NCBI GenBank assembly: GCA_016858145.1
Contig: JAEHOE010000104.1
Span: forward strand, 186,001 to 250,000
DNA length: 64,000 nucleotides
Origin: Edaphochlamys debaryana
Taxonomy: Eukaryota > Chlorophyta > Chlorophyceae > Chlamydomonadales
Direction of reading: 5' to 3'
Below are positions 5,556 to 48,458 of the stretch, piece by piece. The position numbers and the translations under genes were made by a program. Within the stretch, counting starts at the first letter, position 1, and each line of letters starts with the position of its first letter. A model generated the notes under the pieces. That model was not told where the DNA came from, ran no database searches, and saw only the letters and a program-made list of their open reading frames with translations.

Positions 5556-5855
5556 GGGGCTCGGGGCTCGGGGCTCGGGCTCGGGGCTCGGGGCTCGGGG
5601 CTCGGGGCTCGGGGCTCGGGGCTCGGGGCTCGGGGCTCGGGGCTCGGGGCTCGGGGCTCGGGGCTCGGGGCTCGGGGCTCGGGGCTCGGGGCTCGGGGCT
5701 CGGGGCTCGGGGCTCGGGGCTCGGGGCTCGGGGCTCGGGGCTCGGGGCTCGGGGCTCGGGGCTCGGGGCTCGGGGCTCGGGGCTCGGGGCTCGGGGCTCG
5801 GGGCTCGGGGCTCGGGGCTCGGGGCTCGGGGCTCGGGGCTCGGGGCTCGGGGCTC
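5556..5855. repeat. 7-bp tandem repeat (GGGGCTC), about 43 copies
   Basis: An almost perfect array of GGGGCTC runs for about 300 bp, with one copy lacking a G near 5576 and a final GGGGCTCGAGG edge. Since seven is not a multiple of three, each frame reads the same heptapeptide, GLGARGS on the plus strand and RAPSPEP on the minus. The open frames over the array are therefore a by-product. Runs of four G separated by three bases are classic G-quadruplex-forming sequence, with a C-rich partner strand. Single similar units (GGGCTCGGGG) occur just upstream near 5472. Confidence 0.97.
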
Positions 5856-26348: not shown

Positions 26349-29300
26349 TCAAACCTCTCGGACAGCGTGTACGACCACGCCCACCTCCCCTGCTTCAGCG
26401 GCCTGCTGGTCTTGAACGCCCCCTCCCCCAGCAGCCGCCAGTTTACCGCCATCTACTGCATCCCGAGGGCTCTGCGGTGCTCCCGTCGTCTGCCCATCTG
26501 GAAAGTGGGGCTGCTGCTGTGCCGTCCCGGCCTCGACGACGGAGTGGCCGTTTAGGTCTACCCCCGGCAGCTTGCTTTCACCTGCGCCTTCCCGAGGGCT
26601 CCGCGGTGCTCCCGTCAGGTCCGGAGAGTGAGGCTGGGACTGTCCGGCCTTAACGGGGTGGCCGTCGAGGCCCGCCGTCCCCGGCAGCTGGTGGTCGCCT
26701 GCGCTGCTGTCCTCGCCTCCTCTGCCTTCCTGATGAGATCCCACGGCGCGGACCCTCCAGAGGCACCAGCCGCCGCCCTCCGCCCCCTTCCCTGTGCCCC
26801 CTTTCACGCCCTCCCCGCCCTCTTCCTTCCTCCGCCACGTCAGCCGCTCGCGCCACGCGCCGCCGGCCAGCCATGCCGCCGCCGCCTTGATGCCCGCGCA
26901 GGCCGCGGCCCAGGCACCGCAAAGGTGCGGTGCCGCTATGAGCCACACGAACCCAGCAACCAGCCCCAGGTTCAGCACCAGGATGATCACTCCCACCGCG
27001 TCCTCGGCGGCCTGGGGGTCAGGGGAGGGGGCAGGGCAGGCGACGGCCAAGTTTAGTGCAGTGGCAGGCCCTTCACAGGCAGACACCCAATAATGGGCGG
27101 GGCTTCCCAAGACCCCCTCCCCCTCAAACCTCCTGCTGCTCACAGGGTTGTCGAGCTCTGACTCTGGGCTGCCTGTGTCCACGAAGTAGAGCCCCAGCGT
27201 GAGAGTCAGGGACAGGACCTAAAGGAGGGACGGGAAGGGAGGGATGCGGGAGGGGGAGCGTAAGGAGGGTCGCGCGCTGCCCAGAACCGTGCTGGCCCCC
27301 TTTCCGGGGCCGGGGCGATCTCACGATGGATCCAGATGGAGATTGCGCGGTTGGACCCCAACATCCTGGATCCTGGATTCTACATCCTGAATGCTGGATC
27401 CTGGATCCTGGATCCCGTGTGCCTACCATGAGGGACACGTACTCCATGAGGGCCAGGCGCCGGGCGCGGAAGGGGCCGCAGCCCATATTGACCTGGGGGG
27501 GGGGGGGGGGTCACAGCACCGCACCGGGTTGGCTCAGGGGACCCGAAAGCCTACGCTCCCCGCCCTCCTCCGACCCCTGCCCCACCAGCGCTATCAGCGT
27601 GAGGACGCTCAGAAGCAGCAGAGCCTGCGGGAGGGGTGTTGAATGAGGCGGCGGTGGGCGTCATGGGCGGAGTCAGAAGCAGGAGATGGCAAAAGCAGAC
27701 GCATGGCATTTATTTGCGGAGTGAGGGGGTAGGCAAGGCTCTTGCCCTCCCCGCCTCCTTGCCCCCCCTCCCTTCCCATCCCCACCCCTCCTTGCCTGCT
27801 GGTATGCGTGCATGGCCCTTGCGAACACGTCCACCACCACCAGACCCAGCGTCTGCAGCAGCACCACAGCCTCCCAGTAAAAGTAGCGGGGCCTGGGGAG
27901 GGAGGTGGGATGAGCCGAGAGAGGGGGCGAGTTTGAGAAGAGAGGGCGTTGCGCGGCAGGAGGAGTGTGAGGTTTTACTAGCTAGACGGGGCGAACAGCC
28001 CCTAGCAGCAGGACGACGGTGACACAACTAGGACGGGTAAGGCCCCAAGCAAGACCACGGTGTAAGCAGCAGCGTTGCTCGCATCCGTACGGCTACACAC
28101 GTAACCGGCTCTCCGCCCACCCACCTGTACCGCTTGTACAGGTAGCCGTAGCACTGCTGCGTGCGCACCTCCCCCAGCTGGGCCCGCCGCCGCCACATGA
28201 GGGCGAACGAGGCGGCGGGGGGCGCCAGGCAGAAGAGGACGACACAAACGATGCCCAGGGGCAGGAAGACGCTGGCGTGCACGCCGGAGTAGCACTCCTG
28301 CGGGGGGAGGTCGGCGGGTAAGTGAGCCGCGTGGGGGGAGCCGAGAGTGTCAGAAACGTGCCTCGGCGCTTTGCGGTTTGCGTGCTAGGCGGATGGCGAG
28401 GGACCCATGCGGTGGGGCCAAGGCCGTCAAGGACCTTACTTGGTTAGGCTCAGGACTCGGGATGAGCGTGAAGTAAGATCGGGGTGCAACTGTACGACTA
28501 GTACGGCAAGTGGGCCCCGACGACCCTACGTATATCTCGCTCGCGCACGCGCGCACCTGGTTCATGTCTCGCAGCCAGTAGCCGTACCGCCACGCGGCCT
28601 GCTGCAGGGCCGCGTACGGCCCCGTACCGCTGTCCAGCGTACGGCAGGCAAAGAGTGACAGCGACACCTGTTTGTTTGCCCCAGGGGAAGAGCGGGGACA
28701 AGAAGGCAAAGTACGGTGGTGGGAGGCGGGGGGTTCGGGCGCCTGAACCGGCGCTCTTCCCCAACCGTTCTGTGCCGCTAGCACCACATAAAAGGAATCG
28801 CTTTCACACCAAGACCCCACCTGCGCCAGTGACGGGTAGAGCACGAACACGGCCACCAGCAGTACCAGCAGCAGCTGCTGGGGCAGGCCCACGGCCTGAG
28901 GGGGAGGTGGGGGGTAGCGGTAGTGGAAGGGATAATAGTGGAGGGATGTACGGGGGGAAGGAGCGAGGGGTCCGAAGAGCATTCGGGGCGGCGGGCGGCA
29001 GGGCAAACCATCAAGGGGCACTGTTTGCGGAGGGCAGGCCAAAGCTAGGATCCCGGTTTCTACATTAGATCTAATCAACTAGAACTGCTCTGGCCCGCGC
29101 ACGGCCCCATCCACCCCCACCTGGTCCATGTGGACGATGGAGGACTGCGCGCTCGAGGGGGGCACTGCCCCCAGCAGCACCGCACGACTGCGCAGCATGC
29201 GCAGCACGGCGCTGCTACGGCTGTTGCGGCTGTTACGCGAGGATTGGCGGTTGTACGACTCGCGCGTGTCGGTTGGCGGTTGATCCCCATCCTCGGTTTT

Positions 29301-30991
29301 CATGTGCACCTCGTCGTCCTTTCCTTCATGGGCCTGACCGCTGACGTTGTCCTGGCTTTGCTTGATTGCGTCTTGGCGGCTCAGCGGAATGCCGTACGCA
29401 ACATTGGTTTGCGTGTTCCCATTCGCAGGATCTGCCATGTCGTACGGTTCTTGTGCCGCCTCCGCTACGGGACCTGGCGTTGCTTTCCCTTGAGGCTTCC
29501 TCGCAGCCTGGGAATCCGGCATGGATCCAGCGGGCTCCGTCAGGGATACAGCAGGATCCAGAATCCGCACCGTCACCATCTCGCCTGACGGCAGGGGCTG
29601 CCACGACGACACTCCATCTTCGGAGGGCAGGGGCTGCAGGGGTGGCGGCGGTTCGTCCACGTCCGCAGGGAAGCTGGTGGGAAGCTGGGCGCTGTCGGGT
29701 CGGTGCCGGCGGGGGGACACGCGGCGGAGCAGGGCCTGACCGAGGCGCCAGTACCTGGGGGGACGGGTCGAGTGGCGTATCAGTATGACAGTGCACAGGT
29801 GCCGAAACCACAGCAGGACAGCTGCGCAACCCTGAGAGACGCACGGGCTCTACTCTAGGTAAGGTTTCGGGCTACTTGTCACGGTCCCCACATCCCTCAC
29901 CTCACGCTCCACGGCGCCAGCACTAGTGAGCAAAGCCAGCTTTACGAATCCTCCTTAGGAAACACTAGAAAACACGGGAGGGAGACGCGATCGTTCCGCC
30001 TTCCTATGGCTCACTACCCACCTCACGCTCCAAAGGATGAGCACCGTGGCCGCTGCGGCCAGGGGGGTGACGAGCGCCGCCGACCACTGCACGGCCGCCT
30101 GCCCCCCTGAGCCTAGGCCCCCCCACAGGCAGGCCAGGGAGTGGGTCAGCAGCGTGGAGGCGCCCGTGAGCGCCGCCAGGGCCGACTGCAGGCGGGTGAT
30201 GACGTCCGGCCAGCCCAGGGTGAGGCGGGTGATGATGATCTGAGGGGGTGGATGAAGGGCGAGCGGGAGGGGTTGAGCGCAAGAAAACCTGCAAGGATTG
30301 CTCACAAGAACTAGGTGGTAGCACCGGGGGCCGCCCGCGGGAAAGGCTGGTGAACTTGACCCCCCACGCAAAACGCGCGAGATGGGCGGGCCTCAGGGGA
30401 AAGGCGAAGCTCAGGGGAGAGAGGGTAGGAACTGCTAGGCAGGGCAGCCCCCAGACGGCCCACTCACCAGATACTGAGGTGACGGGGGGTAGGGATCAGC
30501 AGCGTTCGGGGCGGACGCAGAAGAGGGCACCCGGGTCAGCTCAAGGAAGGGGCACGCCTGTGCAGACGCAGCGTGCGGCCCGGCCCGACCCCATCTCCGG
30601 CTCCTCCGTTACCTGCATGTGCCGAATGAGGATCTGCACGCATGTACGGCACACGTACGACACAGCGTACAGGCGTCAGTACACGCCGTGCAGCCCAGCG
30701 GCTCCCTCTCCATCCCGCTGTCCTTTCAACCCCTCGGTTCATTCCAACACCACTCACTCCACTTGCTTCCCCTACTTCCCCACCCCCTCACCCTCAGCTT
30801 GTCCGTCGCCGACGCCTCGGCGCCGCTCGCGTTCACGTAGTCCTCCCCGAACGTGCTCCAGGCCGTGTACCCCACCAGCCCCACCGCCGCCAGGTACCCC
30901 GCAAGGGACAGCACCAACGTGCTCCCGGCGCCCGCGCACGCCTCGCAGCCAAACTCGGCGGTCAGGAAGCGGCCGGGGCGGCACGTGGAGC
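26349..30991 (-). other. multi-pass C-terminal tail of the giant protein
   Basis: Exons after the Cys-rich part: 30613-30633, 30022-30239, 29121-29754, 28821-28895, 28557-28667, 28125-28297, 27796-27892, 27586-27624, 27427-27492, 27144-27218, 26349-27011. Eight or nine hydrophobic spans are visible, among them LLLVLLVAVFVLY, LPLGIVCVVLFCLA, VVLLQTLGLVVVDVF, ALLLLSVLTLIAL and VGVIILVLNLGLVAGFVWL. A loop of about 210 polar residues (29121-29754) separates the early spans from the rest. ECYSGVH, YGYLYKRYR and YFYWEAVVL match a tail I recall from other algal and protist beta-helix proteins. The last about 140 residues are soluble and contain two near-copies of a GAPRSPRE/GAPQSPRD segment. A 16-base C run (27495-27510) forms the acceptor tract before 27492. 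Confidence 0.8.
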
Positions 30992-33900
30992 AGAGGCGGC
31001 CGGCGTAGCCCTCGGCGCACTGGCGCTGGGAAGGGTAATCAGGTAGGGCGGAGGGAGAAGGGGGAAGACGTGCGGGCGGTTTGAATAGTTTGAAGGCAAG
31101 GCGAGAGGGTTGTCACGCCCGAAACTAAGCCCTGGGCAAAACCCTTCGTGTACGGCACCGGGGGCACCCCTGTACGGTACGGCACTGACCTCGACGTACG
31201 AAGCGGCGGGGTCGTCCGCCGGCGCGCCCCAGAGCAGGCAGGCGCTGTCCACACCGGCCCCGACGCTGCTCGCAGCGCTGCCGTTGGCGCGTGCCTGCCG
31301 TTGCGCGTCGTAGGTCGTCAGCACCGCCGCCCCCGGTGGCTGGGAGGCGTACCAAGCTGACTGACACGTCACTAGCGCGGAGGTCCCGGCAGTGCTGCTG
31401 CTGTTGCTGGGTTCAGCCGCCGCTGGTGCCCTGGAGTCCGAGCTGGCTTCGAGCGCGGAGGCGGTGGGGGCGGCTTCTGGCGAGCAGGCGTCATCTCTGA
31501 AGCAGCGGTGGACCTGTGTGCTGTTGGCGGCCGACTGCCAGTAGCCGGGGCGTGGGGCCACCACCGCCCCGCCGGTGCACACGGCGTTGCGAGGGCAGAC
31601 CGCGCAGACGCCGGAGCCCGCGAGGGCCTCGGCCCGGAGGGTTTCGTTGCTGTACGACACACGTGCGTTGACCGCCGCGCTCCGGGGGGCCACCCAGAGG
31701 GCGAACTGCCCCGGTCGGCAGCGGAGGCAGGAGGTGAGGGCGGGGCTGAGGGAGCCGGGCCCAGCTGCCAGCAGCTCCTCCCCCAGGCGGCAGGGGCTCA
31801 GCGCCACGGGCTGGGCCAGGGGCGGCACCTGAAGGGGACATGCGAGTGAGGGTGGGGCACGGCAAGGGGAGGGACCGCTAGAAACAGGAGACAATGGCAA
31901 TCCGCCCATCCCTCCGCCCCGCACCCATTCCGGCTCAGTGCTTACCGTAGGGGCAGCAGCTCCGTCTCCGGCCCGGCTCGCCGCCTCGGCGCCGGTTGCG
32001 TATGCGGACGTGACGTTGAGGGCGTACCCCGCCCCCGCCCACCCCACCGCCTGCAGCCCCTCCCACGTGGCCAGACCCGCCACGAAGGCCGCCGTGGGCT
32101 GACTCAGCAGCAGGGACCCGAGGTCGGCGGGGGCCAGGAGCAGGGAGGCGGTGAGGGGGCCGTGCTCTGCAGAGGGAGCGGCAGCGTTCGAGGGAGTCGA
32201 ATTGACCATGTGTGGGCACGAAACAGACAAAGGCATAGCCAACATAAACCGCGCACGGCACGTGGCTTACGACCCATGAAAACCCTAAAACCCTAAAACC
32301 GTACCGGTGATGCGCCGCCCCGCCTCGTCCACCAGCTCCGCCTGCAGCCGCGTCGCCTCGCCCGGGTGGAGGCTCAGCACCTCGCCGGGGCCCAGAGGCG
32401 TGGAGCCGTCGGCCCTCAGCAGCCGCAGCCCCGCGGGCGGCAGCGCGAGCAGTTGGCCCAGCAGCGCCGCCGCCAGCGCAGATGCGGTGGTGCGGTTAGC
32501 GCCTTTGGTGCCGGGGTCTGCTGCGGGCCCCGCAAGCTGCTGGCACTCGGCGACCGCCGCCCACAGACGCGTGATGGAGGCCGGCGGCTGGCCAGAACGA
32601 AAGGAGCTCGACGCATTATTAGTAGCGGCGGAACTGCTTTCGGCGGCGGCGGCTTGGACCGCCGCTCGCACGAGTTCCGAGGTTGGCAGGTCTTCATCAA
32701 TATCGGCGTTAGCGTCAGAAACTGAGCCGTTGACAACCCGGTCTTCATCAATTGCCGAGCAGCCCAGCCAGAGTGATGATGCTGACGTGTCCGCAGTCCA
32801 CAGCAGCCTGTCCGCCCGCCGAGCATCGTCGCCAGCAGGGCCTGCTGGTGCTGTGACCCCGCCTGATTGAGAGCCTCCGGCGCCGTTGCTGCTGTCGCCA
32901 CGCCGCAAGGGCACCAGCGGCGCGACGTCCCGCATCGCCAGAACCCAACAGCCCTCGGACGCCGCCGCGCGCAGCGCCGCCAGAGTCTCCTGCCAGGTGC
33001 TGACGTAGCTCGGCGCCAGAGCACCGCTGTTTCCTGCTGTCAATGCCGCGGTGTTGACTTGAGCCGGAGCACCGCCTCGGCAGTCGGCTGTGTGCTGTGT
33101 CGTGGCGATGCCTGCACCCGCAACGGCCGCTGTGTTGCCACCGCCCAGGTCGGTCCCGGCCGTCAGCGCTGCCGCGACGCCCTCCGAAAGGAACAGTGCC
33201 CCGCCGTAACCCCCTGCGTACTGCTGATACTCAGGGCCGCTGCTGCCCGCTGCCGCCAGCGATGACTGCCCACCGGCGGCGTTGCCAGTGAAGGAGCTAC
33301 GGGCGACCAACAGCGCCGAGCCCGCATCTACGGGGGCTGCAGCCGAGGTGCCTGCTGCAGGAGCTACAGCCGCGATGCCTCCGCCCGAGGACGCCGTGTT
33401 GTTGACAATCTCGACTGCGTCGATCACCGCTTGGCCCACGCCCTCCAGGTAGAGCCCTCCGCCCAGCTGCGTGGCAGAGCAGCCGATTACGGCGCTCGTG
33501 AAGACAGCCAGGCTGGAGGCTCCCCGAGCGCACACGCCGCCGCCCGAGCCCGCCGCGCTGTTAGCCTCCAGCCGACAGCCTTCCACGCGGACCCCCGTGT
33601 CAGCCCCGGCGAGGAACAGGCCCCCGCCGCACTCGGCCGCCTCTCCCTGGGGCACCCAGTTGCCGACCAGGGTGCTGCCCTGGAGCAGCAGGGTCGTGTC
33701 CGCCCCTGGCTGTTGCTGCTCCTGCTGGGGTCCCGAGCTGCTGTTACCCCAGCAGCTACTGCTTCCGACCACCGACAGTGCTCCGCCTGCCTGGCCAGCC
33801 CAGCCGCCAGACAGGACGGACGACGCCACGACAGCCCTGGGCCCGCTGAGCCCAACCTTCGCCGCCGGCGCGCCTTCTGATGACGTGGGCCCCGCCGCAA

Positions 33901-36900
33901 CCGCAGCGGACGCGTTGAGGTGGATTGCGCCTCCTAAGCGGCCGGCCGAGTTGCGCTCAAAGCCGCAGCCGCACATCTCCACCATTGCCGCCGCCGCATC
34001 CGGAGGGAAGCCGCCAGCGCAGGCCGCGGCTAAGGCGGCGGGACTCAAGCCTGAGAACAAGGCAGCTTGGGCCAGGGGCGCTGCGCCGGCGGACGACAGC
34101 AGCAGCCGGCGGCGCTGGGAGCTGGCGGGGGCTGTCGCCGTCGCCTGCAAGGAGCGCCGTGCCGGTAGGTCTGCGTAGATGGCGCCGCCGTGTAACCCGG
34201 CGGCGTTATCCCGAAACGCGACGCCACGGGCCCGGAGGGTGGCGCGGGCGTCACCCGCCGCCGCCGGGAGCCCCGGCTGGCGCAAGGCCACGGCCCCGCC
34301 CAGGCCGCCACAGGAGTTGGCCTCGAAGCGGCAGCCCTCCAAGTTCAACAAGACTTGCCCGCCGCTGCCTGAACGGTCCGCAGAGGCGCCCGAAGCAGCA
34401 GCTGCAGCGGCGGCCTCCAGCGAAATGGCGCCCCCGTCCGCTCCAGCACGGCTGCAGGGTGGGTTGGATGGGGAGTGTACGTAACGAAGGGAGCTGGCAT
34501 GGCACTGCGTACACGTTAGGGGCGCATTCCGCATTGCCCTTCTTACTTGGACAGAAACAAGGCGCCGGCGGCCAGGTGAACGGTCTGATTCGACCCTGAG
34601 CGTGCCTGCGGGGAGGTGCGAGAGGCAGGTGGCGGGGTGGACCCTTGGTCATTGAATCAGCACGTGTCCAGAGCTCGGACCTATCTAGGCATCTTCCGGC
34701 TAGAAGCCAGGACCCTGCCCCGATGGACCCATGGACACACCTGGACCGCAATTGCTCCGCCACTGCCTCGCACAGCCGTGTTGTTGGCAAAGGCCGTGGC
34801 GTCCCCACTGACCTCCAGGTACCCCCCGTGCCCGCACCAGGTGGCACCTCCGCTTCCTCCAGCGCTGTTTCCAGCAACGCGGCTTCCGTTCCTGAAGCGC
34901 GCATCGCCCAACACGGCTGCCGCCACGGCACCACCGTCTGCACCGGCTTGGTTACGCTCTATCGAGCCGCCGCCGCCGCCACCGCCACCGCCGATGCTCA
35001 GGGCTGCGAGGCGGCCACCCACGAACACGCCGCCGCCGCTGCCCACGAGGGCCCTGTTCTCGCGCAAGGCCCCGCCGGCGTCGATCCGCACCTCGCCGAC
35101 CACATCCCCCGCCACGTGCACCGCGCCGCCCTCTCCCCGTGCCACGTTGCCGTGTACGGCAGCACCGTACGACAGCTCCATGCCGCCGAGCCATGCCGCC
35201 GCCACGCCGCCGCCGTTGGTCGCGGAGCAGGCGTCGATCCGGCTGCCATCGCCAGCGACTAGTAGTCTTCCCAGGCCGCTGGGGGCGTAGAGCGCGCCGC
35301 CGGAAGAGGCTGCTGAGCACGCCTCAATGGCGCTGCCTGAGCGGACCGACACCTCTGCAGCGAACCCCAACACAGCGAGTCCGCCACCGGAACCCGTGCG
35401 GGCGGCGTTGCCGGAGACCCTGCTGCCGTCCTCGAGGGCCCAGAGGGTGAGGTTCCTCGCCACCCAAGCCAAGCCACCATCGCTGAAGGCCGTGTCGTTT
35501 GCGGCGACAGAGCCGCCGGTCAGCGTCAGTGCGCCGAGGCTGCCGCCCACCCACAGCCCTCCACCTGCGTTGGAGGCGGCCCGGTTGCCGCTCACTTCGC
35601 TCTTGCTGCGTAGCTCGACAGACTCAACGTCGCCTTCGCAAGACAGCGCGCCCCCCATTCTCGCCGTGTTGTTGCTCAGCGTGCTGCCCCCTTCCAGCAG
35701 CAACCGCTCTACCCGCTCCTGCGCAGCTACTGCTCCGCCAGAGCGCGCCGCTGTGTTGGCCGAGACGCGGCTCCTGTCGCGGACCTCCAGTGCGTTCAGC
35801 GTCCCGCCGACGTAGAGCGCCCCGCCGCTGCGGCCTGCGCTGCAGCCCTCCACGCCCGAACCGTCGCTCAGGGTCAGGCTGGCGTTGCCCCCAGCGTAGA
35901 AGCCGCCGCCGTCGAGGCCGGCGGCTAGGGCAGAAGCGGACGAGCCTGACTGCAGCTTGACGGCCAAAGCGCCGCCAGCAAAGGCGCCGCCGCCACTGCC
36001 ACCGACGGCTCGGCTGGAAGTGAGGCGAGAGCTGGAAGTCAGCAGGAGGCTCAGGGCTTGCCCGGCGTACAAGGCGCCGCCGTCGTGGCTCGCCTTGCAC
36101 TCAGAAATGCTGCTGCCGGTGCTGAGCTCTACGCGAGGCAGGGAGGCCGGCGTGTGGATGCAGCCGCCCCGGACCGCCTTGCAGCCCAAGAGGGTCGAGT
36201 TGAGCGCGATCGAGACCAGCTCCAGGCCCTCTTCCGCATGCACACAGCCGCCGTCTCCAAGCGGCGTGGAGCTGTTGCCAATCCAGCTGCCGTTGACGAG
36301 CCTCACGGAACCCGAGGAGGTGAGGTGTACGGCACCTCCAGATCCGTTTCTGGCGATGCTGCCCTCCATGCAGCTGCCATGGCTCAGCTCCAGTACGGCA
36401 GATCCGGTCACGTGGATTGCGCCGCCGCTGCCCCTGGCCGTGTTTCGGCGGAGGCAGCTCCCGCCGTCCAGCACGAATCGGGCCTGGCCGCTCGCTGCCA
36501 CGGCGCCGCCATCTCCGTCCAGGGCCTCACAGTCTGACATGGCGCTCCGGTCTGACAGGGTCAGCTGCCGTACCCGGTCCGTCACGTGAAGGGCGCCGCC
36601 GCTGAGCGCCGCCCAGCAGCCCTCCACTCGGCTGCCGCCCGAGAGCGTTACGGAGTCAATGGGCAGGGAGGAGGCCAACAGGCCGCCGAAGCCCCAGGTC
36701 GCACTGCGTGCGGTGAAAGGGCCGGGTGGATAGGAAGTACGTAAGGTTGACCGGAGCTACGAGGAGCTTCAGCTACGAGGGTTGCAGATAGCGCCCGACT
36801 GGAGAGGGAGAGCAACAGCCCATGCCGCGTTTCAGGCAGCAGCAGCCTAAACAGCCCACCTGTTGTTCACGGCCGTACTGCCGGCACTCAGGCTGACGCT

Positions 36901-39900
36901 GTCCACCAGCCCAACAGCTCCATCAACCATGAAGGCGCCGCCAGACATGTTGGCAGTGTTGTACGACAGCTCCGCTCCTGCCAGACGGATAGAAGCCACG
37001 TGGCCCGCTGACAGTACGGCACCGTTCTGGGCGGTGTTGCCCAACAGACGGCAGTCGCTGGCTTCCAGAGCGCCCAAGGCGCCAGCCACCTTGAAAGCGC
37101 CGCCGCTATGGTTCCACCGATAGAAATCGTTGATAATATCCAGGTGATAATGCCTCCAATTGAACAGGCTTGGCTTGGGGAGGTCGAAGGTTGGTCGGGG
37201 GCCGTTGCCCTCGATCAGGGTTCCGGCCTCGAGCTGGATCGACCCCAGGGAGCCGTTTGCTGCCACTACGGCTCCGCCCAGCCACGCCCGGTTGCTCCGG
37301 GCCGTGACGTTGCGGAGGGTCACGTGCGTTGAGTCTGCGCCCATCAGCACAAGGGAGGCACCAAAGCTGCCTTCGTTGGACTCGAGCACTGAGTCTGCCA
37401 ACGAGACGGTCCGGGGCATCTGGCGGGCATGGGGACGGGCGGACGTCTGGTAAGGAGGGCGCGCGAGACAAGGATACAGCACAATGGAGCCGCCGACCCC
37501 CTATCCAGGAACCGCCCAGATAGCAGACAGGTAAGATAGATTGCCCCAATTAAGCTCCGAGCCGATGGCAAAAAGATACCCACCTTAGGGTCGGCGGACA
37601 TGTCCAGGATGACAGCGCCGTAGCCCTCGAGCGACCCAGCGCGGTCCCAAGGCGCGTCGTACATGAAGGGCCACAGCGTGCCGTACGCGCCGCCCCAGGT
37701 GACTGATGTACGGCGTACAGTCACTCCCGCAAACCGTACGGCACCGGGCTGCCCTTCGCCAAACCGGAGCAGTGCGCAGGACCAGCCGTGGGCGTTCACG
37801 ACGTCAAGGCACCGTAGCTCTTCCAGGCTGGCCGAAACAACGTTGGTCGCGTGGAGGGGCCCGAAGACGAGCACCGGTGGCTTGGCGTCTCTGTCCTCCA
37901 GGGTTGCGTTGGGGCTGCGTGGATCCGTTGTCAGTACGGCAGTCAAGGCGTCCTCCACGGCTGGGACGTCCCGGGGCCGCCCGGTCAGGTTGGCAAAGGT
38001 CACGTTGGAGAGGGTGAGGTAGGGACAGTGGAGGCACTGGAAGAGGGGGCCTCCGGTCGGCAGGGGCAGGCCCTCCACAATCGAGTCCACCAGCCGCAGG
38101 TGCTGCACGCCCCGCAGTGTGACGCCCTCGTCGGCGCCCGCATTGCTCACGAGCCCGGACAGGTTGCTGAAGCGGTACCGCGTGTACGGCGGTACGGCGG
38201 CACGGCGCTTCACGCTAGCGGTTGGAATGCCCTCCAGCGTGATGTTGCCGTACGTCGTACTCCCCAGCTCCAGGGTGGGCGGTTGCGTGGTGTTGGCGAG
38301 GGGCACGGTCCAGGGGGCCGAGGGGTTGGCCGCTTCGGCGGGGGGGTCCCAGCACTGGAGGCGCCGGGACCGGGGCGTGAGCTCCAGGCGACAGCTGAGG
38401 GTCCAGGGCGGGAGCGGCGTCGTGGAGGCATCTTCATCATGCGCCTCTGATGGCGCAGGAGGCTGGGGCGACGGCCGGGCTGGCATGGCCGGGGCGGGCA
38501 GTAGGGGCCCTGTACCTGCAAGCACACGGCATGCGACCGATGCAGGGTCAGCCCTTGTCGAAGAAAAGGAACTGCGGCGGCAGTAGTGCGCAATTCGTAT
38601 GCTCACCACGGTCGCACGTAGACGTCCCGCCCGGCCGCATGCACTCACCCAGCCGCACCGCCTCCAATCCGTCCCCCATGTCTGCCGGGGACCGCCCGCG
38701 CCGGCGGAGGTCTCCCAGCCCCAGCTGTCCCACGGCGTTGTCGCCCCAACACTTGAGCTGCCCGGTCCCCCGCAGCACCGCGCAGCTCCGGTTGCCGCCA
38801 GCCGCCACGGCAGCCGCCAGCAGCGGGAGCCCGGACAGACTGGAGCCCAGGTTCACGGCCGCCAGGTCGGACATGCTGCCGGGTCGGTCGCCGCGGTTGG
38901 TGCGGTCCCCGAGTCCAAGCTGCCCGTACTCGTTCAGCCTGCCGAGGTCGAGGGATCGAAAGAAGCATGACTTGCGCGTCAGAAAGGGCTGCCACACCCT
39001 ACCTGCATGGTAAATGCCTAGGCCTGCTGTGCTGCTGTGACCCTCAGGACGCATGCAACTCCGGTGGCCGCTGTACGGCACGCACCCGAAGCACTTGAGC
39101 TCCCTGCCCTCGAGCAGGGCGCACACGTGGTGCTCCCCGCAGGCGATGTGGGCCGCTGCCGCCCCCTCCCCCAGGTCCACGGGCCTCAGCGCAACGCCCA
39201 TGGCGGAGGGGGTGGCCCCACGGTCCGTGTCGTCATCGGCACCCAGCTGGCCAAACCAGTTCCTATGAGGGTGGGCAAAGAGGAGGAGGCCTAGACTCGG
39301 GAAAGAGAGGCCCCGAGGTTGTTCGCAGGGGGTGAAGGAGAGGAGGAGGCTGGGAAGGAGAGGCCCCGAGGTTGCCCCCCGAGTCCCCCAGCGCCGCCCC
39401 GGGTCCATCCCACCTGCCCCAGCACTTGACGCGTCCGCCGACCAGGAGCGCGCACACGTGGCCCTGCGTAGAAAGGTAGGCATGGGAGGTATAATCAGGA
39501 GGATCACAGAGGCTAGGCGCGATCACCGTCCCACAGCTGACCTGCCCCACCCTGGCCCATGCCGCCGTGTCGTACCCGCGCCTGGCTACTGCGTACCCGC
39601 CAACAGCCGGACCAGAAACCACACACAGCGCAGCCAACCGCCAACCGCCAACAGCCAACCGCCAACAGCCGGACCAGAAACCACACACAGCGCAACCCAC
39701 CGAAGCGCAGCGAGCCAGACCCGGCCCGGCCCCTCCCTCACCTGGCCGCTGCAGAGCCGTGCGGCCCGCGCCCCCGGCCCCAGGTCGATGGGGCGGACCC
39801 CGGCCGTGCGGGCGCTGGTGTCCGCGGCATAGCCGTACAGCCCCTCGATGCCTAGCTGCTCGAAGAACCCGTCCCTGCAGTACGTACGGCAGCGGAGGGC

Positions 39901-42900
39901 TTCGGTTTAGGAGATGCATACCGCTTCCCCGCCAGTGACTGCCCTGTGCACGCCCGCGTCTCGCTCACCCCCAGCACGTGACCACCCCCCCGGGCTGCAG
40001 CACGGCGCACGCCGTCTTCTCCCCCGCCGCCAGGGCCGTCGCCCTCCAGCCCCCCGGTCCAAAGTCCACCACCCCGGCCGAGGCGTCGGGGCGGGAGGCG
40101 TCGTTCGGGCGGCCCAGCTGGCCAGAGCCGTTATCACTGGAGGGTGACAGGAGGGCAAGAAAGGGCGTAGGTAGGGGGCCAAGTTCATGTGAGTCGTCAC
40201 ATGATCCTCATCACACGATATCAAGCGAGCCCATGCCGTTGTACCCCAGCTCACCCCCAGCACGCCACCACGCCCCCGGGCTGCATAAGCGCGCAGCAGA
40301 AGTAGGCCCCGCACGCGAGGGCCGAGGCCGCCAGACCCTCCGCGCGGGTGCCCCCGAAGTCCACGGGGCGCAGGGCGGCCGGCAGCTCGCCCGGCTCGTC
40401 GCCCAGGGTCACCAGAGGGTCAAGCCCCCGCACGCCCAGCTGGCCAATGCGGTTGGACCTGGGACGGCAGCAGGTGCGGTTGAAGGATGTTATGGGGCAG
40501 TGCGCAGATGGGGCGGTAGGTACGAGCGGGCACGGGTGCCACTCGGTGACGCCGGGACCGCGGATGCAGAGTGGCGAATAAACCACTGGATGGCCAATGA
40601 CACAGCAGCACCCAGCCTGCCTTTGCTCTCGGCATCGCAACGAATCGCTACCACAGCCCCCGACCTACCCCCAGCACACCACCTCCCCCGTTGCCAGAGC
40701 TGCGCAGCTGTGCCCCCACCCCGCCGCCACCGCCACCGCCACGCTGCCGCCCAGGTCCACCTGCCGAGGAGAGGAGCGAGGCGGGGCGCAAGGATTTCAT
40801 AGGACGCGTGCCCCGCAAAAGTGGAGTGGGGTTGAGCAAGGTGCATCCGGGGCCATCGAGGCAACACCAAGCCCACACCTCTGCGGACCCTCGCTCACCG
40901 CAGGCAGGTCGTCGCCCATGCCCTGCGGCCCCCCGCCCCTGCCCCTCGTGTCTCCGATGCCGAGCTGACCGTCCTCGTTGGCGCCCTGCAGGGATGCGGG
41001 AGGTGAGGTGTGGAGTTATGCCGGTCACGCGTTTGGGGCGGGCCTTTGTAGAGCGAGAGGGATTCTCGCGTCACGGCCATGGAGTTCATGGAGTGGGTGG
41101 TGGTGGGGCGACGGTTAGAACCTGCCCTGCCCCCTAAACGAACCCCTTAGCTCCCGCCCTTGCATACGGCACGCACCCAGCACTTGACCCTGCCCCGCTC
41201 GAGTAGGGCGCACGAGTGGTCGGCGCCCATGGCCACGTCCAGCACCCGCAGAGGCGGGCCTGGAGGAGGGAACAGGGAGAGGCGGTTGGTTAAACAGGCG
41301 CGAGCCGGAGTGGGGGTTCGAAGCGGAGTCTGGGCCTCTCTGCCACTTCTTGCAACTGCAACTGCACACACCTCCTGTTTGCCACGGCGCCATTTCGGGG
41401 GGCGGTCTGGGAGGCGGTGCCGGCTCGGGAAGCTCGCCTGGAGGAGGTGAGCATGCACCCAGGTGCGCAAGTTGCACATAAGTTGGGCAGACCGGCAGCC
41501 AACGAAACCACCACCACCACACGCCCGCCACCCACCGGGCTGAATTGGGTTGCTGCACCTCAGCCCCACGTCTTGCTGGTGACCGCACGTGTTGGCGCCC
41601 CAGCCGGAAAAGGAGCACTCGTGCAGCGCCCGCGGCGGGGCTTGGGGCGGGGAAGCGCCGCAGTCCACTCGGGACTGCGTGGGGTTGGAGCGGGGTTGAG
41701 AGGCAGGGCGCGACGTGTACAGTATGCAACCAGGTCAAAGTCAGGTCTTTCCGTCACGGCCGGGCATTGAGAGCGGCGCGGATTTGCAAGGGCGCTCAGG
41801 GCCAAGGGTCTGGGCCGAAGGCCCGCGCTGCTTTAATCAAGTACGTTCAGCTGTGCCATGAGGAGTGGAGGAGGCGCGCAAGGGGCTTCGCCGCGCTCCA
41901 GGGTGCCACATCAGCCGGCTGTATGTGCAACGCAACGGTCTCGCTCTTGCTTGGCAACAGCGCTAGGATTTATTACGTACGTACCATGTGAATGGGGTAG
42001 TCAGGCGCATAGAAGCCCAGCGGTTGCGTGTAGGCCGTACCCGACCGATACCTGCGGGGCAGAAGGGGTGGGGCGGGGCACCGGCACCCTTCACGTCAGC
42101 ATCTGCGTCCCCCATGCCCCACAAGAAGCCGGCGGCAAACATCAACCACACAAGCGACGGCTGCGCACCCTAGCTGCCGGCACGCCACCGCCGTACTCGA
42201 GGCTTTCCAGCCGTCATTGCTGCAGGGAGGGGAGGGAGGCAAACGTAGACAGGCGTTGTGAGGAGCGAGAGTGCGTGGGGGCGAGCGCGACTCAGTTGCT
42301 TGACTCGAACTCCCACCCACCAAACACTGCCCCAGGTGCGGTTGTGGAAGATCTCGAGCCGCCCGGTGCCCGGAGGTGAGGAGCCCGAGCCAAGCAGTCG
42401 GATGCTGTTCTCAGGCACTGCGGGGAGGGCGGGGAGGGAGGAGAGCAATAACTCATGAGCGAGGAGGACGCCACAACAGATCTGCAGTGTGCATTGTTGG
42501 CTGCCTCCTGACCTATTAAGCTGAAACATAGCAAGTAAACCTCGAGGTGTCAAGCTGAGATCCCCTCCCTTACGCCGTACGATTCGGTACGAACGCACCA
42601 TGACAAATCACGGCCACCAGCTCCGTACAGTTTCCCGCTCGGTCTACCACGCCGCTGCACTCGGACCAGGCCCTGGCCCCGGGGGGGCAGGACACGTGCG
42701 TTATGCTGGGCACTGCCGCACCGAAGCTCAGCTGCAGAGGGGTGCCCTCGGTCTTGACGGCGCGGCCGCCGCCCGCAAAGCCCGCGGCCAAGCACGCCGT
42801 GTTGGACTCCACGTCCGTCCAGTGCGGCTTGCAGACGTAGTAGCCTGTGCCGGTCAGCTCGATCGCCGCGACGTACAGCACCTGTACGGGTCGCACGCGC

Positions 42901-45900
42901 GCATAGTGAGCCATACATGTGTACGGCACAATGTTGCCGTACACGTGCGTTCCGCCTGGTGGCAGGATTCATTTGCAAAACAGTATCCCTGTCATTCACC
43001 TGGTCTGCGGCGATGTTGAGGCTAATAGACTTGTTGCTGGCGATGAGCTGGAACAGGAAGAAGCTCCACGCGTTCAGCGGGCGACCCACTGCCAGAGCAT
43101 CAAGCATAAGTGTCCGAGGGGGCATGCATAAGGGGCATGAGTAAGGGCCTGGCATGTGGATTGCATGAGTGTCAGTTGGTGGTTGGGACAGACGCACCGA
43201 CAGGTGGCGGCGGCGGGGGTAGCGGCGGCGGGCGGGGCGGGCGAGGCGACTCGGGAGAAGCGGGCAGCGGCCCTGCGGGAAGGGCCACGGGGTAGGGACA
43301 GGTGATCCTCACGTTTGCAGCCGGCTCAGCCCTCGGAGACCTCGTTCTCGCCCATCCAGGAGCGGGCTAGGTGCTGCGCAGCCCTCGCCTGAAGAACCGG
43401 GGGCGCTCGCAGCCCGCCCGGGCACACCCCGCCGCGCCCCGCCCGGACTCAGCGGCCGCCCGCGGGGGACAGGTCACCCCCTCCCTTCACCTCACACAAC
43501 CCCCACCCCCTCCCTTCACCTCTCGCTCTCCCACCTTCGCACCCCACAAAGATGTCCTCCGTGTGATCACAGTCGCCCCCACCCGGGCCCGGCCCCAGGA
43601 AGCGGCACTCGGCCAGGCCGGCCGCACCGGGGGGGCACGCCAGCTCGTCCTGGGGGGCGTGGGAAGGGAAGGGCGTAGAAAACGGGGCATGGCACGGTCA
43701 GCACTACTGCACAGCACGGGTCAGCACAGCAAAGCCTCGCTCTGCTGTTCAAAGCATGGCTGGCTTGGCTGCCTGCCTTATTCCCGCCCGAACCAGCGGC
43801 GGACGCATTCCCCTGCCCTACCCTTCCTTCTCCCCTCGCCGCTTGCCTCCCCAGCACCCACCCACGTGTACGGCAACAGCGTGGCACAGCATCTCCTGTA
43901 TCACCTGTCGAGGATTCCTCATAACTTGCTTCCCCCTTCGCCCCTACCTCAGCTCTCCAACCCCCAACCCACCATCAGCACGGGCCCGCTGCTCCCCGCC
44001 AGGCCCTGCCGCAGCTCCTGTGCCAGGGCCTGCGCCTGCCAGCCGCTGCGGTTGAAGCCCAGCTGCCGACACACCGCCGCTGCGTTGGCTAGGCCGTGGT
44101 ACTGCCAGCCGTCGTCACTGCGGGGGACGAAGTGGGGAAGGGGGCGAATTTGGCGGAAGTACAGGGTGGGAAGGGGAGAGTGCTTGTGGTCCTGAGCGCG
44201 GGGGGGCGGATCCCGTCCCCAGGACAAGTAGCAAAGCTCGTCGCTGGGCGGGACGACTGAGCAGTGGAGAAGCCCGGGGCCAGCCAGTAGTGTTGGGCTG
44301 AGGCGGCCTTGCAGCTGAACCCTTCGCCGATCGGACTCACCACACGGTGCCCCATGTGCCATTCCTGCGCGGGCGTCGGCGGCATGTCGGGGCGAGCGGG
44401 CGGGGTTCAAAGGGGTGGGGTTGGGGCTACGAGGGCTCAAGGCCTGCTGCTAGCACCCAGCCACCCGTCACTCCAGCGCCGGGTCGCACAGCCGCCCAGC
44501 CGCCCACAGCCAGCCCCGCTCACACCAAGCTTGCGTTGAATACCTCCAACCTCCCCACCGCTCCCTGCGCGCTCGGACCGCGCGAGAAGGTGAGCGCGTT
44601 CACCAAGCGCACGGGGATCTCGTCCGCTGCACGGTATATAACGGGGCGGGGTACGCCGTCGCAAACACAACAGGCATAGGGCCACGGGGTGGGGCAGGGA
44701 AGCAAGCAACGAGGCGTCACCGCCAGAAGGGGGCAGGCCCGTCGGGAGGCGCTAAGGGGAGCATTGAACCAGAGGTCATGGTTAAGCATGCATGGAATGG
44801 CCTCCAGCGCCTCACCCGAGCACGTGACGCCCACGTCTCTGTCGTGAGTGCCGTACGCACTGCCCCAGCCCCCCTCGAAATCGCACGCCGAGAGGGCGGC
44901 GTCGCGGCTGGCGTTACAGGTCACGGATTCCTGAGGAGGGAAGGAGAGGGGAGGGGGTGCAGAAGCCCGCAGGCGCGGAGGGTGACTCGCAGAGCCGCCG
45001 CCGCAATAACGTACCTAAGGCTCTGTGCTTTGCTTTGTGTTTTGCAAGCCAATCAGCTGTTGGGCATGCCATTGGCATTGGAATTGTAATTGGCATTGTG
45101 TTTGTCCTAACCTGCTGAGGCGGAGGTGCACAGGGGGGCAGAGGGGCGCACGTGCGCTTGCCCAGGCTGCAGGTAGTGCTCTCATGTCCCCCTCAATTTC
45201 CGCCGCATGCACTCCCATGCACCCCGCCACCCACCAGGTGGATGGGCCCCGTGCCGCCCCCCGCGCGCCAGGCCGTGCCTCCCCGGTGGCCCAGCTGCCG
45301 GCACACCACCACCGCATTGTCGTCTCTCCCCTGCCAGGATAGGCCGCCGCTGGAGGCACGTGGAGTGGTTCCGGATTAGTGCCAAGCAAATCCATATTCG
45401 CAAGCGTGTCGTGTCAAGCGTGCGTGGAAGCAAGGGATTCGGGCACTGCTGCCGTACTATAGGATCAGCTGATGAGGCCTATGCTGCAGGTCCTATGGTA
45501 CGGTACGTTGGGTACGTCTGACTCACTCGACGGTGCCCCACGTCCCGTTGAAGAACACCTGCCGGGACGGAAGACGCAAGAGACGGTATGCATGAGAGAA
45601 GGGGGGAGTTGGGTAGCATGAGTGCAAGGGAGAACAAGCGCACCAAATGTACAAAAGCCGATCAGTTTGTTCGTTAGGCAGGGCCCTCCTGTCGTTCGCT
45701 TCCCACCTCGAGGCGACCCGACAGCGGTGATGACCCGTCGACGAGGCGAAGGGGCGCGGCTGCACGGGCGGGGACATGTAAGGGGGACCGCGGGGCAGGT
45801 CTGGCGCACGGGCGCAGGGGGGCGCACGGGGCAGGTGTGGTGGATGGGCAGCTCCCGCCTCCACAACGCAGCACGCATAGCAGCACGCATAGTCGTACAT

Positions 45901-48458
45901 CCATCCTCACCCTCGCCACCACCATCACCACCGCCACTGACCGGCATGGTCTGGCGAGCCTGGGCCGGTCCACTTGACAAGCCGGCATCCTAACCCCACT
46001 CCCCATCCACCCATTGCTCGCCCCCGCGGCTTGAGCTGCACCCACCGTCACACACGACCGCCGCCACCTCGCTGCACTCCTGCCCCCAACCCGGCGCCCC
46101 AAGCTCCGCCAAGCACTCATCCCAGGAGGCCGCCCCGGGTGGACACCTGGGCGGATGGCGGGGCGGGTGGGAGGGGAGGGTGGGGAGGGTGGGGCTGAGG
46201 CAGGTCCCAGTTGCTGTCCCTGTCCGTGCCGGTAAAAGCGATACAGATCTCCCGGCCCTTTCTGTGTCGTGTTGTACGGCAAGAACGGCTCACCTGACGT
46301 TAGTGACAAAGGGGTACCCCCTCGTGACGTACACGCGGGGCGCGGGCGCGGGCGGCACGCGCCCGCCCGTCAGACCCGCCCTTAGGCAGGCCAGGCGCGC
46401 CGCGTGCTCGTCCCAGCCGGTACTGCAGACCATGTGATCGTCCTCACTCCCGTACGACGAGTACGAGCTGCCGTACGGCGCATCGCGAGGCGGTACCGTC
46501 GTCACGTACACGACCGTACCGCCCTTGCTGGCGGCGTAGAAGCCTCCAGCCTTCTCGGACTTGTACAGCATCGTGACGCCCCAGCCCACCAGCGGCACAC
46601 GCTCTGCATAGGTGCGCAAGATGAGAGTTAGAGCAATAGGTGGCCCTCGGTTGGTTGGATCTAGGCTGAGGTGCATGCGGGGTGATCCGAAAACGGGGAA
46701 TAATCTCACCGAGGGGCGCCAGCGGCGGGCGTGGGGGTGGCGTGGGCGGCGCAGGCGGTTGTGGCGGGCGCGGTGGCGGCAGTGAGCCTGCGGTGGGTTC
46801 GTTCAGCGCTTAGCCGATGTGGTGCCCAACCCAAGCTTCTGCTGCTCATGCCACTCTCAGCCAAGAACGCGTGGCCAAGGTGCGTGGTCTCGTGCCGTGC
46901 GCAGGCACGCGGACTTCCATCCCTCCGCACTCACCCGAGCAGCGCAGCCCCACCACCTCCTCGCGGCTGCAGCCTCTGCGGCTGACGTTGCCCCAGCCCG
47001 CGAAGCTGCAGGCAGCCAGGCTGGCGTGCAGGAAGGCGGAGCACACGACTCGGTCCTGCGGGCGGCAGGCGGGCAGGTCGCAAGGGCATGGGAGCTGAGC
47101 GCACGCGTCTGACATTGGAGGTCTGGTTGATGGGGGCCGGAGGCTTCAAGGCTAGCTCCGCCCTCACCGTTCCTGCCTTGATCTGCCCCCGTACCTCCGT
47201 CCGCGCCTTCGTCCATCAGTTCCCCACCCACAAACCCACCATGTGTATGGGGCCTGTCCCCCCCGACGCCACATAGGCGTAGCCCCCTCCGAAGCCCAGC
47301 TGGCAGCAAGCCACCTCCGCATTGCCCTCGTGCTCGCCCCAGCCAGTTACGCTGCAAATTTGCAAAGAAAGGAACGAGGACAGGGGCAGGGGCGTGGCGC
47401 GGCATCAAGCAGAAAGCATGGTTCGCCCACGTCCCCCTGCACACCGCCAACACGAGATTACTAAACCCGTGTCAAACTCCGTAACCGCGTAGCTGCTCAC
47501 CATACGGTCCCCCACGTTCCGTTCCAGAGGACCCTGCAGGGCGGGTCCGTGGGGCAATAAGTGCACCCTAGGTTGGCGGTTGCATGCACACGTCAAGCCA
47601 GCAACTGACCTGGTGCCGCGAGCCCAGCATTTCTATCTACGCTCCCCGGTTGCAGAAACTTTCTGCCCCCTTCCCCCACGACTGAGCAGCTAGCCCTGGC
47701 GCCCCCGCCCCGCTTGGCCTCACTCCAGGCGGCCAGCAGGGGGTAAACACGCAGCTGCGGCGAGCGGCTGGCTTGGGTCGGCGTCCTCGGGCACGAGGCG
47801 GAGGGGGTGGGCGTCCCGGTCTGCTGGCGGTAGGAGGGGGTTACGGCAGTGGGAGTGAGTGGCTGGGAGGCCGGGTGGACGGATCACGGAGGCGCCTGCC
47901 GCAGGCGCGCATCTCATCCCTCGCAGCAAGTGCACATACCCGTGAGAAAATCGTATACATGGTCGAAGGGTGGGGGGAAGCCTGTGGCAGGGGCATCTGG
48001 GCCGTGGTCAGGGAGTTGGTGGGTTCCGGCGAGCGCGCGAGCGCTGAGCGAGCCGATCGGAGCAACTGCGCGCCTCAACAAGCGCCCCCGTCATGAAAAC
48101 TTGCAACCCCCCCACCTTCTGCTGGTCGAGACTCCCCGAGCACCGCTCCTACTGGAAGCACTTCAGGGCGGGGAGAAGCGGGGGAGGGGGGGGAGGGGGC
48201 GACGTTGTCGCGAGTGACTCCCCCGGCTGCCAGTGACTGGCAAGTGCATCCGCAGCAAGAAATCACATCGGTGCCTCTTGCTTAGCGCAAGCGCAGGGCC
48301 CAGTCCGGTGGTGCGTGCGAGTCGCCGACCCTCATCGCACGCGCTCGGTTCTTCAACTCGCCTCCAGGGCCTTCAAGTATGACGCAAAGTGCAATCACGG
48401 CGTATGCCAGATAGCTGAGGGCCGCGCGCGCTGGCCGCGGTGGTCGGCAAGGGGACAT
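26349..48458 (-). CDS. giant SRCR-RCC1-Pmp-like beta-helix multi-pass membrane protein
   Basis: Fifty-two exons join with agreeing phases into 12,750 bp, 4,249 residues plus stop. Domain order: signal peptide (h-region LSYLAYAVIALCVIL), SRCR domains 1-6 (about residues 40-825) with two internal Pro-rich linkers, RCC1-type repeats (847-1274), Pmp-like GG(A/G)(I/L/V) beta-helix region (about 1275-3160), Cys-rich EGF/TNFR-like part (3236-3480), and a multi-pass tail with a hydrophilic loop and soluble C-terminus. Topology suggests a very large ectodomain facing the lumen or outside. A receptor or adhesion role is inferred only from SRCR and beta-helix families. The first exon (48341-48458) is the weakest part: it is chosen because it encodes a signal peptide and its GTGCGA donor fits phase 1 of exon 2. 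Two adjacent genes cannot be fully excluded, but no stop or new start lies at any domain boundary. Confidence 0.75.
30792..32166 (-). other. Cys-rich EGF/TNFR-like segment before the membrane tail
   Basis: Exons 31946-32166, 31190-31828, 30792-31025. The middle exon has CLRCRPGQFALW, CAVCPRNAVCTGGAVV and PRPGYWQS, a pattern common just outside the membrane in algal and protist Pmp-like proteins. RQCAEGYAGRLCSTCRPGRF is EGF-like and is followed directly by the first hydrophobic span, LVLSLAGYLAAVGLVGY. Confidence 0.85.
32279..32300 (-). repeat. short interstitial telomere-like repeat
   Basis: Two and three-quarter copies of TTTTAGGG (read on the minus strand) start a few bases inside the intron after exon 32305-34451. 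This is the Chlamydomonas-type telomere unit. Confidence 0.85.
32305..38515 (-). other. Pmp-like beta-helix region of the giant protein
   Basis: Exons 37584-38515, 36860-37419, 34741-36703, 34547-34605, 32305-34451. After a Pro-rich linker the sequence becomes a long series of 20-30-residue rungs. Each has an SGGA(L/I/V) or GGG(L/V) turn and an N.A or NTA ladder (for example RNTARGSGGAIHV, NSAGGSGGATWCG). This is the pattern of chlamydial polymorphic outer-membrane proteins and related eukaryotic beta-helices. Some rungs are Ala-rich and irregular between about 32400 and 33100. The two largest exons are near 2 kb, far longer than other exons here. Confidence 0.85.
38649..41437 (-). other. RCC1-type repeats of the giant protein
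   Basis: Linker exon 41372-41437, then 41177-41259, 40899-40985, 40669-40760, 40255-40458, 39969-40136, 39742-39874, 39414-39463, 39086-39262, 38649-38938. Repeats carry the RCC1 signature: G.(N/D)..GQLG.(G/R)D, then a V(D/N)LG or VDFG strand, A.G..(H/T).CA(L/V)L, and KCWG or ACWG. Seven GQLG or related EQLG starts are visible, consistent with one blade propeller or a regulator-like RLD domain. RCC1 folds bind chromatin or small GTPases in many proteins. Here the position after SRCR domains suggests a secreted propeller instead, which is inference. Confidence 0.9.
41536..47820 (-). other. six SRCR domains of the giant protein
   Basis: SRCR domains bind ligands in metazoan receptors and are also known in Chlamydomonas and Volvox. 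Exons: SRCR1 47724-47820, 47501-47533, 47240-47351, 46935-47055; Pro linker 46710-46787; SRCR2 46294-46603, 46046-46146; SRCR3 45707-45759, 45527-45558, 45235-45349, 44816-44930; SRCR4 44524-44626, 44341-44364, 43973-44117, 43535-43649; Pro linker 43198-43272; SRCR5 43000-43088, 42599-42881; SRCR6 42321-42417, 42169-42219, 41985-42051, 41536-41674. Hallmarks are GRLEV..NGTWGTV(W/C), (V/A)CRQLG, and terminal C.F.GWG / LRCS. SRCR2 and SRCR5 are divergent and lack NGTWG. The four-exon plan is shared by domains 1, 3, 4 and 6, so they arose by tandem duplication. Confidence 0.9.

Follow-up and report, generated by a model that had tools for sequence, protein, structure and literature searches.

The minus strand of the window (the whole 64,000-nucleotide stretch of Edaphochlamys debaryana DNA analysed here) carries, from position 48458 to 26349, a single spliced frame without an internal stop that joins six SRCR domains, an RCC1 propeller, a predicted beta-helix rod and a multi-pass membrane base. 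The best overall explanation, to which we assign a probability of about 0.7, is that this frame is one gene, HYH03_014422, that it encodes a receptor or adhesin, and that its family arose through the exchange of head cassettes bounded by phase-1 introns. More interesting than the single protein is that a unicellular alga has such a family, with phase-1 modularity.

Gene model and public annotation

The frame was rebuilt from the raw strand by way of splice sites and domain motifs; an earlier sequence-only reading supplied the end points and two junctions, and the exon list was built anew. The model has 54 exons and 53 introns, with an ATG at 48458 and a TGA at 26349, and its coding sum of 12,882 nt is a multiple of three, giving 4,293 aa. 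Donors are GT at 52 introns and GC at one, acceptors are CAG at 51 and TAG at two, intron lengths range from 93 to 323 nt (median 156), and the window contains no N. The end points and the junction coordinates of the sequence-only reading (41259/41674 and 38515/38938) are equal in our model, while its counts of 51 junctions and about 4,250 residues were slightly low. Its remark that the phases agree throughout and that the sum divides by three proves little, since splice sites were picked so as to keep the frame. As phase agreement alone is weak evidence, independent support was sought in the public gene model, in a paralogue on contig C3 and in an open frame on contig C178. All three, together with the rebuilt frame, bear out a single-frame gene with the order SRCR, RCC1, beta-helix, membrane base.

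The features of the window gene, with the evidence for each in brackets, are:

48341..48458, minus strand: exon 1, with the start codon and, at residues 10-28, a hydrophobic segment resembling a signal peptide (hydropathy only; not in HYH03_014422)
46935..47820, minus strand: SRCR1, exons 3-6, with a phase-1 intron at its end (gene model, Pfam, phases)
46710..46787, minus strand: exon 7, a Pro-rich linker between phase-1 introns (gene model; not in the public model)
46046..46603, minus strand: SRCR2, divergent type, exons 8-9 (gene model, Pfam)
44816..45759, minus strand: SRCR3, exons 10-13, with just 4 cysteines (gene model, Pfam, cysteine count)
43535..44626, minus strand: SRCR4, exons 14-17 (gene model, Pfam)
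43198..43272, minus strand: exon 18, a Pro-rich linker between phase-1 introns (gene model, phases)
42599..43088, minus strand: SRCR5, divergent type, exons 19-20 (gene model, Pfam)
41536..42417, minus strand: SRCR6, exons 21-24 (gene model, Pfam)
41372..41437, minus strand: exon 25, a Pro-rich linker between phase-1 introns that connects SRCR6 to RCC1 (the public model has the identical exon)
38649..41259, minus strand: RCC1 propeller of seven repeats, exons 26-34, flanked at either end by a phase-1 intron (gene model, Pfam, phases)
37584..38515, minus strand: exon 35, Pro-rich linker and conserved beta-helix lead-in, 'bh0' (gene model, sequence comparison)
32305..37419, minus strand: exons 36-39, beta-helix rod, then low-complexity spacer (Pfam; AlphaFold for exon 37 only)
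34741..36703, minus strand: exon 37, right-handed beta-helix that continues without a break over 654 residues (AlphaFold2 model, PDB neighbours)
31190..32166, minus strand: exons 40-41, spacer and Cys-rich neck (gene model, sequence comparison)
30022..31025, minus strand: exons 42-45, with an EGF-like CxxC segment and the earliest of the membrane helices (gene model, paralogue alignment)
29121..29754, minus strand: exon 46, long loop, probably cytosolic and disordered (gene model, AlphaFold of the base)
27144..28895, minus strand: exons 47-53, more membrane helices and the TRP-profile match, GC donor at exon 50 (gene model, Pfam)
26349..27011, minus strand: exon 54, with the final membrane helix, a charged tail and the stop codon (gene model, hydropathy)

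The public record of the gene, HYH03_014422, is a hypothetical protein of 4,073 aa with SRCR and RCC1 domains annotated, and it unites the same modules. According to PMC8226300, the gene models of this species were made with BRAKER and stranded RNA-seq. By comparison of nine-residue strings, 39 of our 53 junctions also occur in HYH03_014422, the SRCR6-linker-RCC1 joins included; the other 14 are absent and include junctions 1 to 7 as well as the precise splice from RCC1 to the rod. The public protein begins within SRCR1 and has no signal peptide. Exons 7, 15, 43 and 44 are missing from it, exon 50 is shorter, the frame runs on into intron 34, and the RCC1-rod junction is spliced differently. 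At several of these places the rebuilt model has backing: the very short exons 43 (21 nt) and 44 (6 nt, encoding YL) from an HMQYLIIITRL-type motif in paralogues, exon 50 from VF...QQALLLL in paralogues, and the RCC1-rod junction from the C3 paralogue, which joins RLTG to a Pro-containing exon in much the same way. Exon 15 (24 nt, within SRCR4) encodes an NGTWGTV motif that is also found in SRCR1 and SRCR3. We found no published description of this protein or architecture in the literature searched. The architecture is already deposited as a hypothetical protein, and the sequence-only reading had hoped for something more singular than this one protein proves to be.

The 14 junctions absent from an RNA-seq-aided model could be taken to mean that the locus is a decaying or unexpressed copy. 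We give this very little weight, as the 12.9 kb frame has 53 clean splice sites and no stop, and in an alignment of 12 membrane-base segments from Edaphochlamys to Raphidocelis (its own row counted among the 12) the gene retains every one of the 30 invariant columns.

Extracellular modules

A Pfam search of the joined protein placed six SRCR domains and the RCC1 repeats above the curated cut-offs, and Beta_helix and TRP below them. The SRCR profile (PF00530) matches in six stretches with 260.5 bits against a cut-off of 26.1 (E 9.7e-79). Cysteines number 8, 6, 4, 6, 6 and 6 in SRCR1 to SRCR6, so that five of the six domains have six or eight and SRCR3 is short. Two SRCR exon types exist, a divergent one with a long exon (SRCR2 and SRCR5) and a typical split one, and both the window gene and its C3 paralogue (residues 499-636 and 763-920) place a divergent long-exon SRCR and then a typical split SRCR ahead of RCC1. 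The RCC1-like domain is matched at E 1.8e-63, with RCC1_2 in seven stretches and WD40_RLD at 215.5 bits against 150.

The rod spans residues from about 1628 to 2990, limits that were set by eye, and its Beta_helix matches (8.9e-4 and 1.9e-3) lie below the cut-off. An AlphaFold2 model of exon 37, built on an alignment of five paralogous segments, predicts with high scores (pLDDT 95.4, pTM 0.92) a solenoid of three-strand coils of about 29 residues each, that is, a right-handed parallel beta-helix. Plain Foldseek with this model gave no match with E < 0.12; in a second-look search its PDB neighbours were mainly beta-helices, for example SRRP, Vag8, UpaB, pertactin and pectate lyases. The earlier description of the rod as Pmp-like thus fits its fold and its repeated GG motifs but does not extend to membership of the chlamydial Pmp family, for which the Chlam_PMP match (E 0.025, best 15.3 bits against 20.6) is below the cut-off. 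A chlamydial autotransporter was likewise rejected: the C-terminal outer-membrane barrel is absent, and the C-terminus of the window protein is helical and multi-pass. The beta-helix may equally be a stalk rather than a ligand binder, and three stacked ligand-binding architectures, as the sequence-only reading had it, can only be inferred.

Membrane base: channel or anchor

After the Cys-rich neck the window protein has about nine membrane helices and then a tail. An AlphaFold model of the C3 base (mean pLDDT 67, pTM 0.64) shows about nine long helices and a disordered loop, and as a model it would suit a topology with the N-terminus outside and the C-terminus inside. The window protein matches the TRP profile (PF06011) at 8.5e-4, with 18.7 bits against a curated cut-off of 28.5, and a relative from Chlamydomonas incerta scores exactly 28.5 bits; the match is partial, covering profile positions from about 271 to 399 of 426. 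Neither Pfam scans of the window protein nor those of the base segments gave a PKD_channel match.

These data leave two uses for the base. It might act as a channel, which we consider rather unlikely, or it might be a mere anchor or a receptor of another kind, with the protein serving as an adhesin or matrix tether, a reading that we put somewhat short of even odds. The partial, below-cut-off TRP match fits the anchor, as do the adhesins among the PDB neighbours of the beta-helix and the outcome of fold searches with the membrane base, in which no solved structure, those of TRP and PKD included, was a convincing relative. On the other side, the TRP profile matches seven of the 12 base segments at E<=0.01 (best 3e-8), and a many-helix core with 30 invariant columns from Edaphochlamys to Raphidocelis exceeds the needs of an anchor.

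A family with exchangeable heads

The sequence-only reading knew of no other protein with this order of modules. The order is not unique: in HYH03_001318 on contig C3 (4,260 aa), matches to SRCR, RCC1, beta-helix and TRP follow one another as they do in the window gene. The two proteins are collinear, with 32% and 37% identity in the two longest stretches, the former running from SRCR5 through RCC1 into the rod, and 45% in the membrane core. The exons of HYH03_001318 from residue 499 onward could be placed over 18 kb and, as in the window gene, RCC1 has phase-1 introns on both flanks; the exon map gives four SRCR-like units (Pfam takes two as single stretches) against six in the window gene. 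Residues 1-480 of HYH03_001318 look like an unrelated gene fused by prediction, across a 2.5-kb gap.

Both junctions of the window gene recur elsewhere as well, in partial combinations. On C178 (HYH03_017740), a single open frame of 1,796 aa runs from RCC1 repeats through a Pro-rich linker and bh0 into the rod, and loci on C13 (HYH03_004429) and C27 have RCC1, bh0, neck and membrane base; all three loci share RCC1, bh0, rod, Cys-rich neck and base with the window gene. With an HMM of the window's six domains, no SRCR was found at E<1e-3 in the 17-19 kb upstream of these three genes. Loci on C2 and C40 carry SRCR, rod lead-in, neck and base without RCC1. Finally, HYH03_004221 on C12 (1,100 aa) has SRCR, a Pro linker and RCC1, with no base match within 30 kb; its SRCR assignment rests on the UniRef name and an HMM match (E 9.6e-6), since the precomputed Pfam list gives RCC1 only.

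In a wider census, 110 base-exon matches were grouped into about 48 loci. Among the matches listed, which do not include the window's SRCR exons or the RCC1 of C3, SRCR lies within 30 kb upstream on the same strand at no fewer than 11 of the 48 loci (at least 11) and on the opposite strand at 4, and within 30 kb downstream on the same strand at none; RCC1 lies within 30 kb upstream on the same strand at at least 4, and downstream or on the opposite strand within that distance at none. Five groups of membrane-base matches in both orientations lie at 103-162 kb and 408-411 kb of contig C103, likely a site of recent duplication, and SRCR and membrane-base matches form inverted gene pairs on C2 (3426-3460 kb) and C14 (733-774 kb).

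Homologues split at the two junctions had been named as evidence against a single gene. Such forms do exist (RCC1-base, SRCR-base and SRCR-RCC1), and C3 keeps both junctions intact; this mixture speaks for a modular family rather than a mis-joined gene model. Judged by sequence comparison, the window gene is a member of a family whose heads are exchangeable: SRCR, RCC1, both or neither.

A mis-joined model would mean that two or three adjacent genes on the same strand (SRCR; RCC1 and/or rod-membrane) were fused by prediction, in the sequence-only reading and in BRAKER alike. The SRCR-RCC1 join does span introns in all three loci where it was observed, the first exons are missing from the public model, which also differs in its RCC1-rod splice, and some family members are without SRCR or RCC1. 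Yet a paralogue of about 35% identity, HYH03_001318, keeps the same order, RCC1 and rod share one open frame at C178, the linker introns of the window gene are short (98, 112 and 133 nt), and an RCC1 protein started at the exon 25 ATG would have no signal peptide. The Chlamydomonas poly(A) signal, TGTAA, occurs once on the gene strand, inside exon 13, and at neither junction, a weak argument because the 1.3 kb after the stop codon has no TGTAA either. We consider such a fusion very improbable, and the window locus is with high confidence one real gene.

Relatives in other algae

A search with the base returned 16 proteins, the query included: 8 from E. debaryana, 2 from Chlamydomonas incerta, 1 from Gonium, 4 from Volvox africanus (two of which carry one name) and 1 from Raphidocelis. 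By the precomputed Pfam list, SRCR or RCC1 occurs in four of the eight E. debaryana proteins and in no member from another species. A search for the same order in Chlamydomonas, Volvox and Gonium had been proposed; the annotated relatives found in C. incerta, Volvox africanus and Gonium show the base only. GPECTOR_55g270 (Gonium), Vafri_15845 (Volvox africanus) and HXX76_005133 (C. incerta) combine rod-type repeats with a TRP-like base that is 45-49% identical, but as annotated they have neither SRCR nor RCC1, unlike the window protein. Three base relatives (P0125, P0129 and P0130) have a signal-peptide-like start shortly ahead of the rod region. Raphidocelis Rsub_01970 resembles the window protein in having beta-propeller-type repeats before a beta-helix and a TRP-like base, but the repeats are Kelch instead of RCC1, and SRCR is absent.

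In a base tree of 18 rows, all five RCC1 carriers fall within a clade of nine E. debaryana rows (97/99), outside which lie two further E. debaryana rows, one of them C40; the two SRCR-plus-RCC1 genes (window and C3) do not group together. Given this tree and the limitation of SRCR and RCC1 to E. debaryana members, the base is older and the heads are probably additions, with loss in the other species as the alternative. The most expanded E. debaryana orthogroup reported in PMC8226300 consists of SRCR/C-type-lectin genes, 16 against at most 1 in five other species.

Intron phases at module boundaries

Phase-1 introns make up 13 of the 53 in the window gene. With boundaries delimited by the analyst as SRCR ends, linkers and both sides of RCC1, all ten boundary introns are phase 1, against 3 of the 43 others (hypergeometric P 1.5e-8); two of these three flank the exon before SRCR1. 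The same holds at the paralogous loci: 5 of 5 boundary introns at C3 (11 of 37 introns overall being phase 1; the intron before the first SRCR was left out), 4 of 4 at C2 (one of which opens a short exon with an upstream neighbour that was not located), 1 of 1 at each of C13 and C27, and 2 of 2 at C12. Altogether, 23 of 23 scored boundaries at six loci (window, C3, C2, C13, C27 and C12) are phase 1; C40 and other SRCR loci were left out of the scoring, and C178 is intronless at its RCC1-rod junction. At C2, each of two SRCR domains occupies one symmetrical exon (387 and 366 nt).

Exon shuffling is, according to Patthy, practically restricted to animals, and the domain types used are class 1-1 (PMC8001218). 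The phase-1 boundaries suggest class 1-1 shuffling outside animals, and sister genes seem to have exchanged modules in the form of entire exon blocks, a way of building proteins that is generally attributed to animals. In its full form, which we put forward tentatively, this would mean that a unicellular green alga independently evolved animal-style class 1-1 shuffling of extracellular SRCR, RCC1 and Pro-rich linker cassettes onto a conserved rod-plus-TRP-like base, yielding a lineage-specific set of dozens of giant receptor-channels. If true, it would contradict the published view.

The phases may have another source. Patthy names a bias of intron insertion towards AG|G sites, in linkers rich in Gly, as a possible origin of phase 1 at animal linkers (PMC8001218). 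In the window gene the intron follows an initial G in all ten boundary codons, read by hand (five Gly, two Ala, two Val and one Glu), which keeps this account live. In such a reading the boundaries reflect insertion at G|gt in Gly/Ala/Val linker codons, and the architectures arose by duplication and loss, not shuffling. We regard it as a serious contender of well below even probability. Insertion bias leaves the exchange of heads between paralogues unexplained, while duplication and loss must accommodate four SRCR/RCC1 combinations, with and without the base, from a large ancestral protein through repeated losses, and the annotated relatives found in other species are without SRCR or RCC1. Because head cassettes, with phase-1 flanks at every boundary scored, occur in four combinations, the question can be tested by comparing introns and species in a small sequenced clade.

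Surroundings of the gene

Directly upstream of the gene, on the minus strand at 49298-48282, lies a frame starting AYQTLSDPKSRQLYNTKLEQALEDEDEAYTG, which we take to resemble the end of a DnaJ J-domain; Pfam gave no match to the whole frame, and a separate gene probably ends here. A GGGGCTC heptamer array of 43.7 copies (98% matches) occupies 5556-5860. At 8491-8931, on the plus strand, tandem C-rich repeats with units of 30-69 nt lie inside open frames (8066-9168) that possibly encode a Pro-rich wall protein. From 10001 to 26000 the G+C content is 0.55-0.61, against 0.63-0.71 in the gene region; our guess is that this is another class of DNA, such as mobile elements.

Proposed function and comparison with known systems

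The window protein is probably a cell-surface receptor or adhesin, a location we infer from its modules. The protein of about 4,290 residues would enter the secretory pathway and be held by its nine or so membrane helices. Outside, from the tip inward, would stand six SRCR domains, the RCC1 propeller and the beta-helix rod, several of these modules being separated by Pro-rich linkers. The two kinds of head, SRCR and RCC1, might bind ligands such as glycans, matrix or other cells, with the rod spacing them from the membrane; the base would anchor them and may relay a signal as a TRP-like channel, and the charged exon 46 loop and tail would point to the cytosol. The family itself would arise by swapping phase-1-bounded head cassettes onto the conserved beta-helix/membrane base. 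Such proteins are candidates for the means by which these algae perceive or hold on to surfaces, bacteria or one another.

Giant modular SRCR receptors are best known from animals. The alga would follow the same logic with a different base, and its RCC1 propeller would probably serve as an extracellular head. RCC1 repeats in a Pro-rich, presumably secreted protein are also found in C. reinhardtii CHLRE_01g006900v5, a peptidase M11 of the gametolysin type; unlike the window protein, it has a protease domain and, in the Pfam list, neither rod nor membrane base. Closer in plan are C. reinhardtii MST3 and seven predicted SIP-binding proteins, which are described as combining a multi-pass, channel-like base with very large extracellular regions that contain poly-Pro and, in one member or another, SRCR, LRR or lectin domains (PMC11015965). 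Their bases are described there as PKD2-like and completed by SIP, whereas the window protein and the base segments gave no PKD_channel match in the Pfam scans, and the parts of that account available to us name no beta-helix or RCC1, unlike the window protein (PMC11015965). By analogy, the MST3/SIP-binder group is the nearest functional counterpart, and the window protein perhaps works alike.
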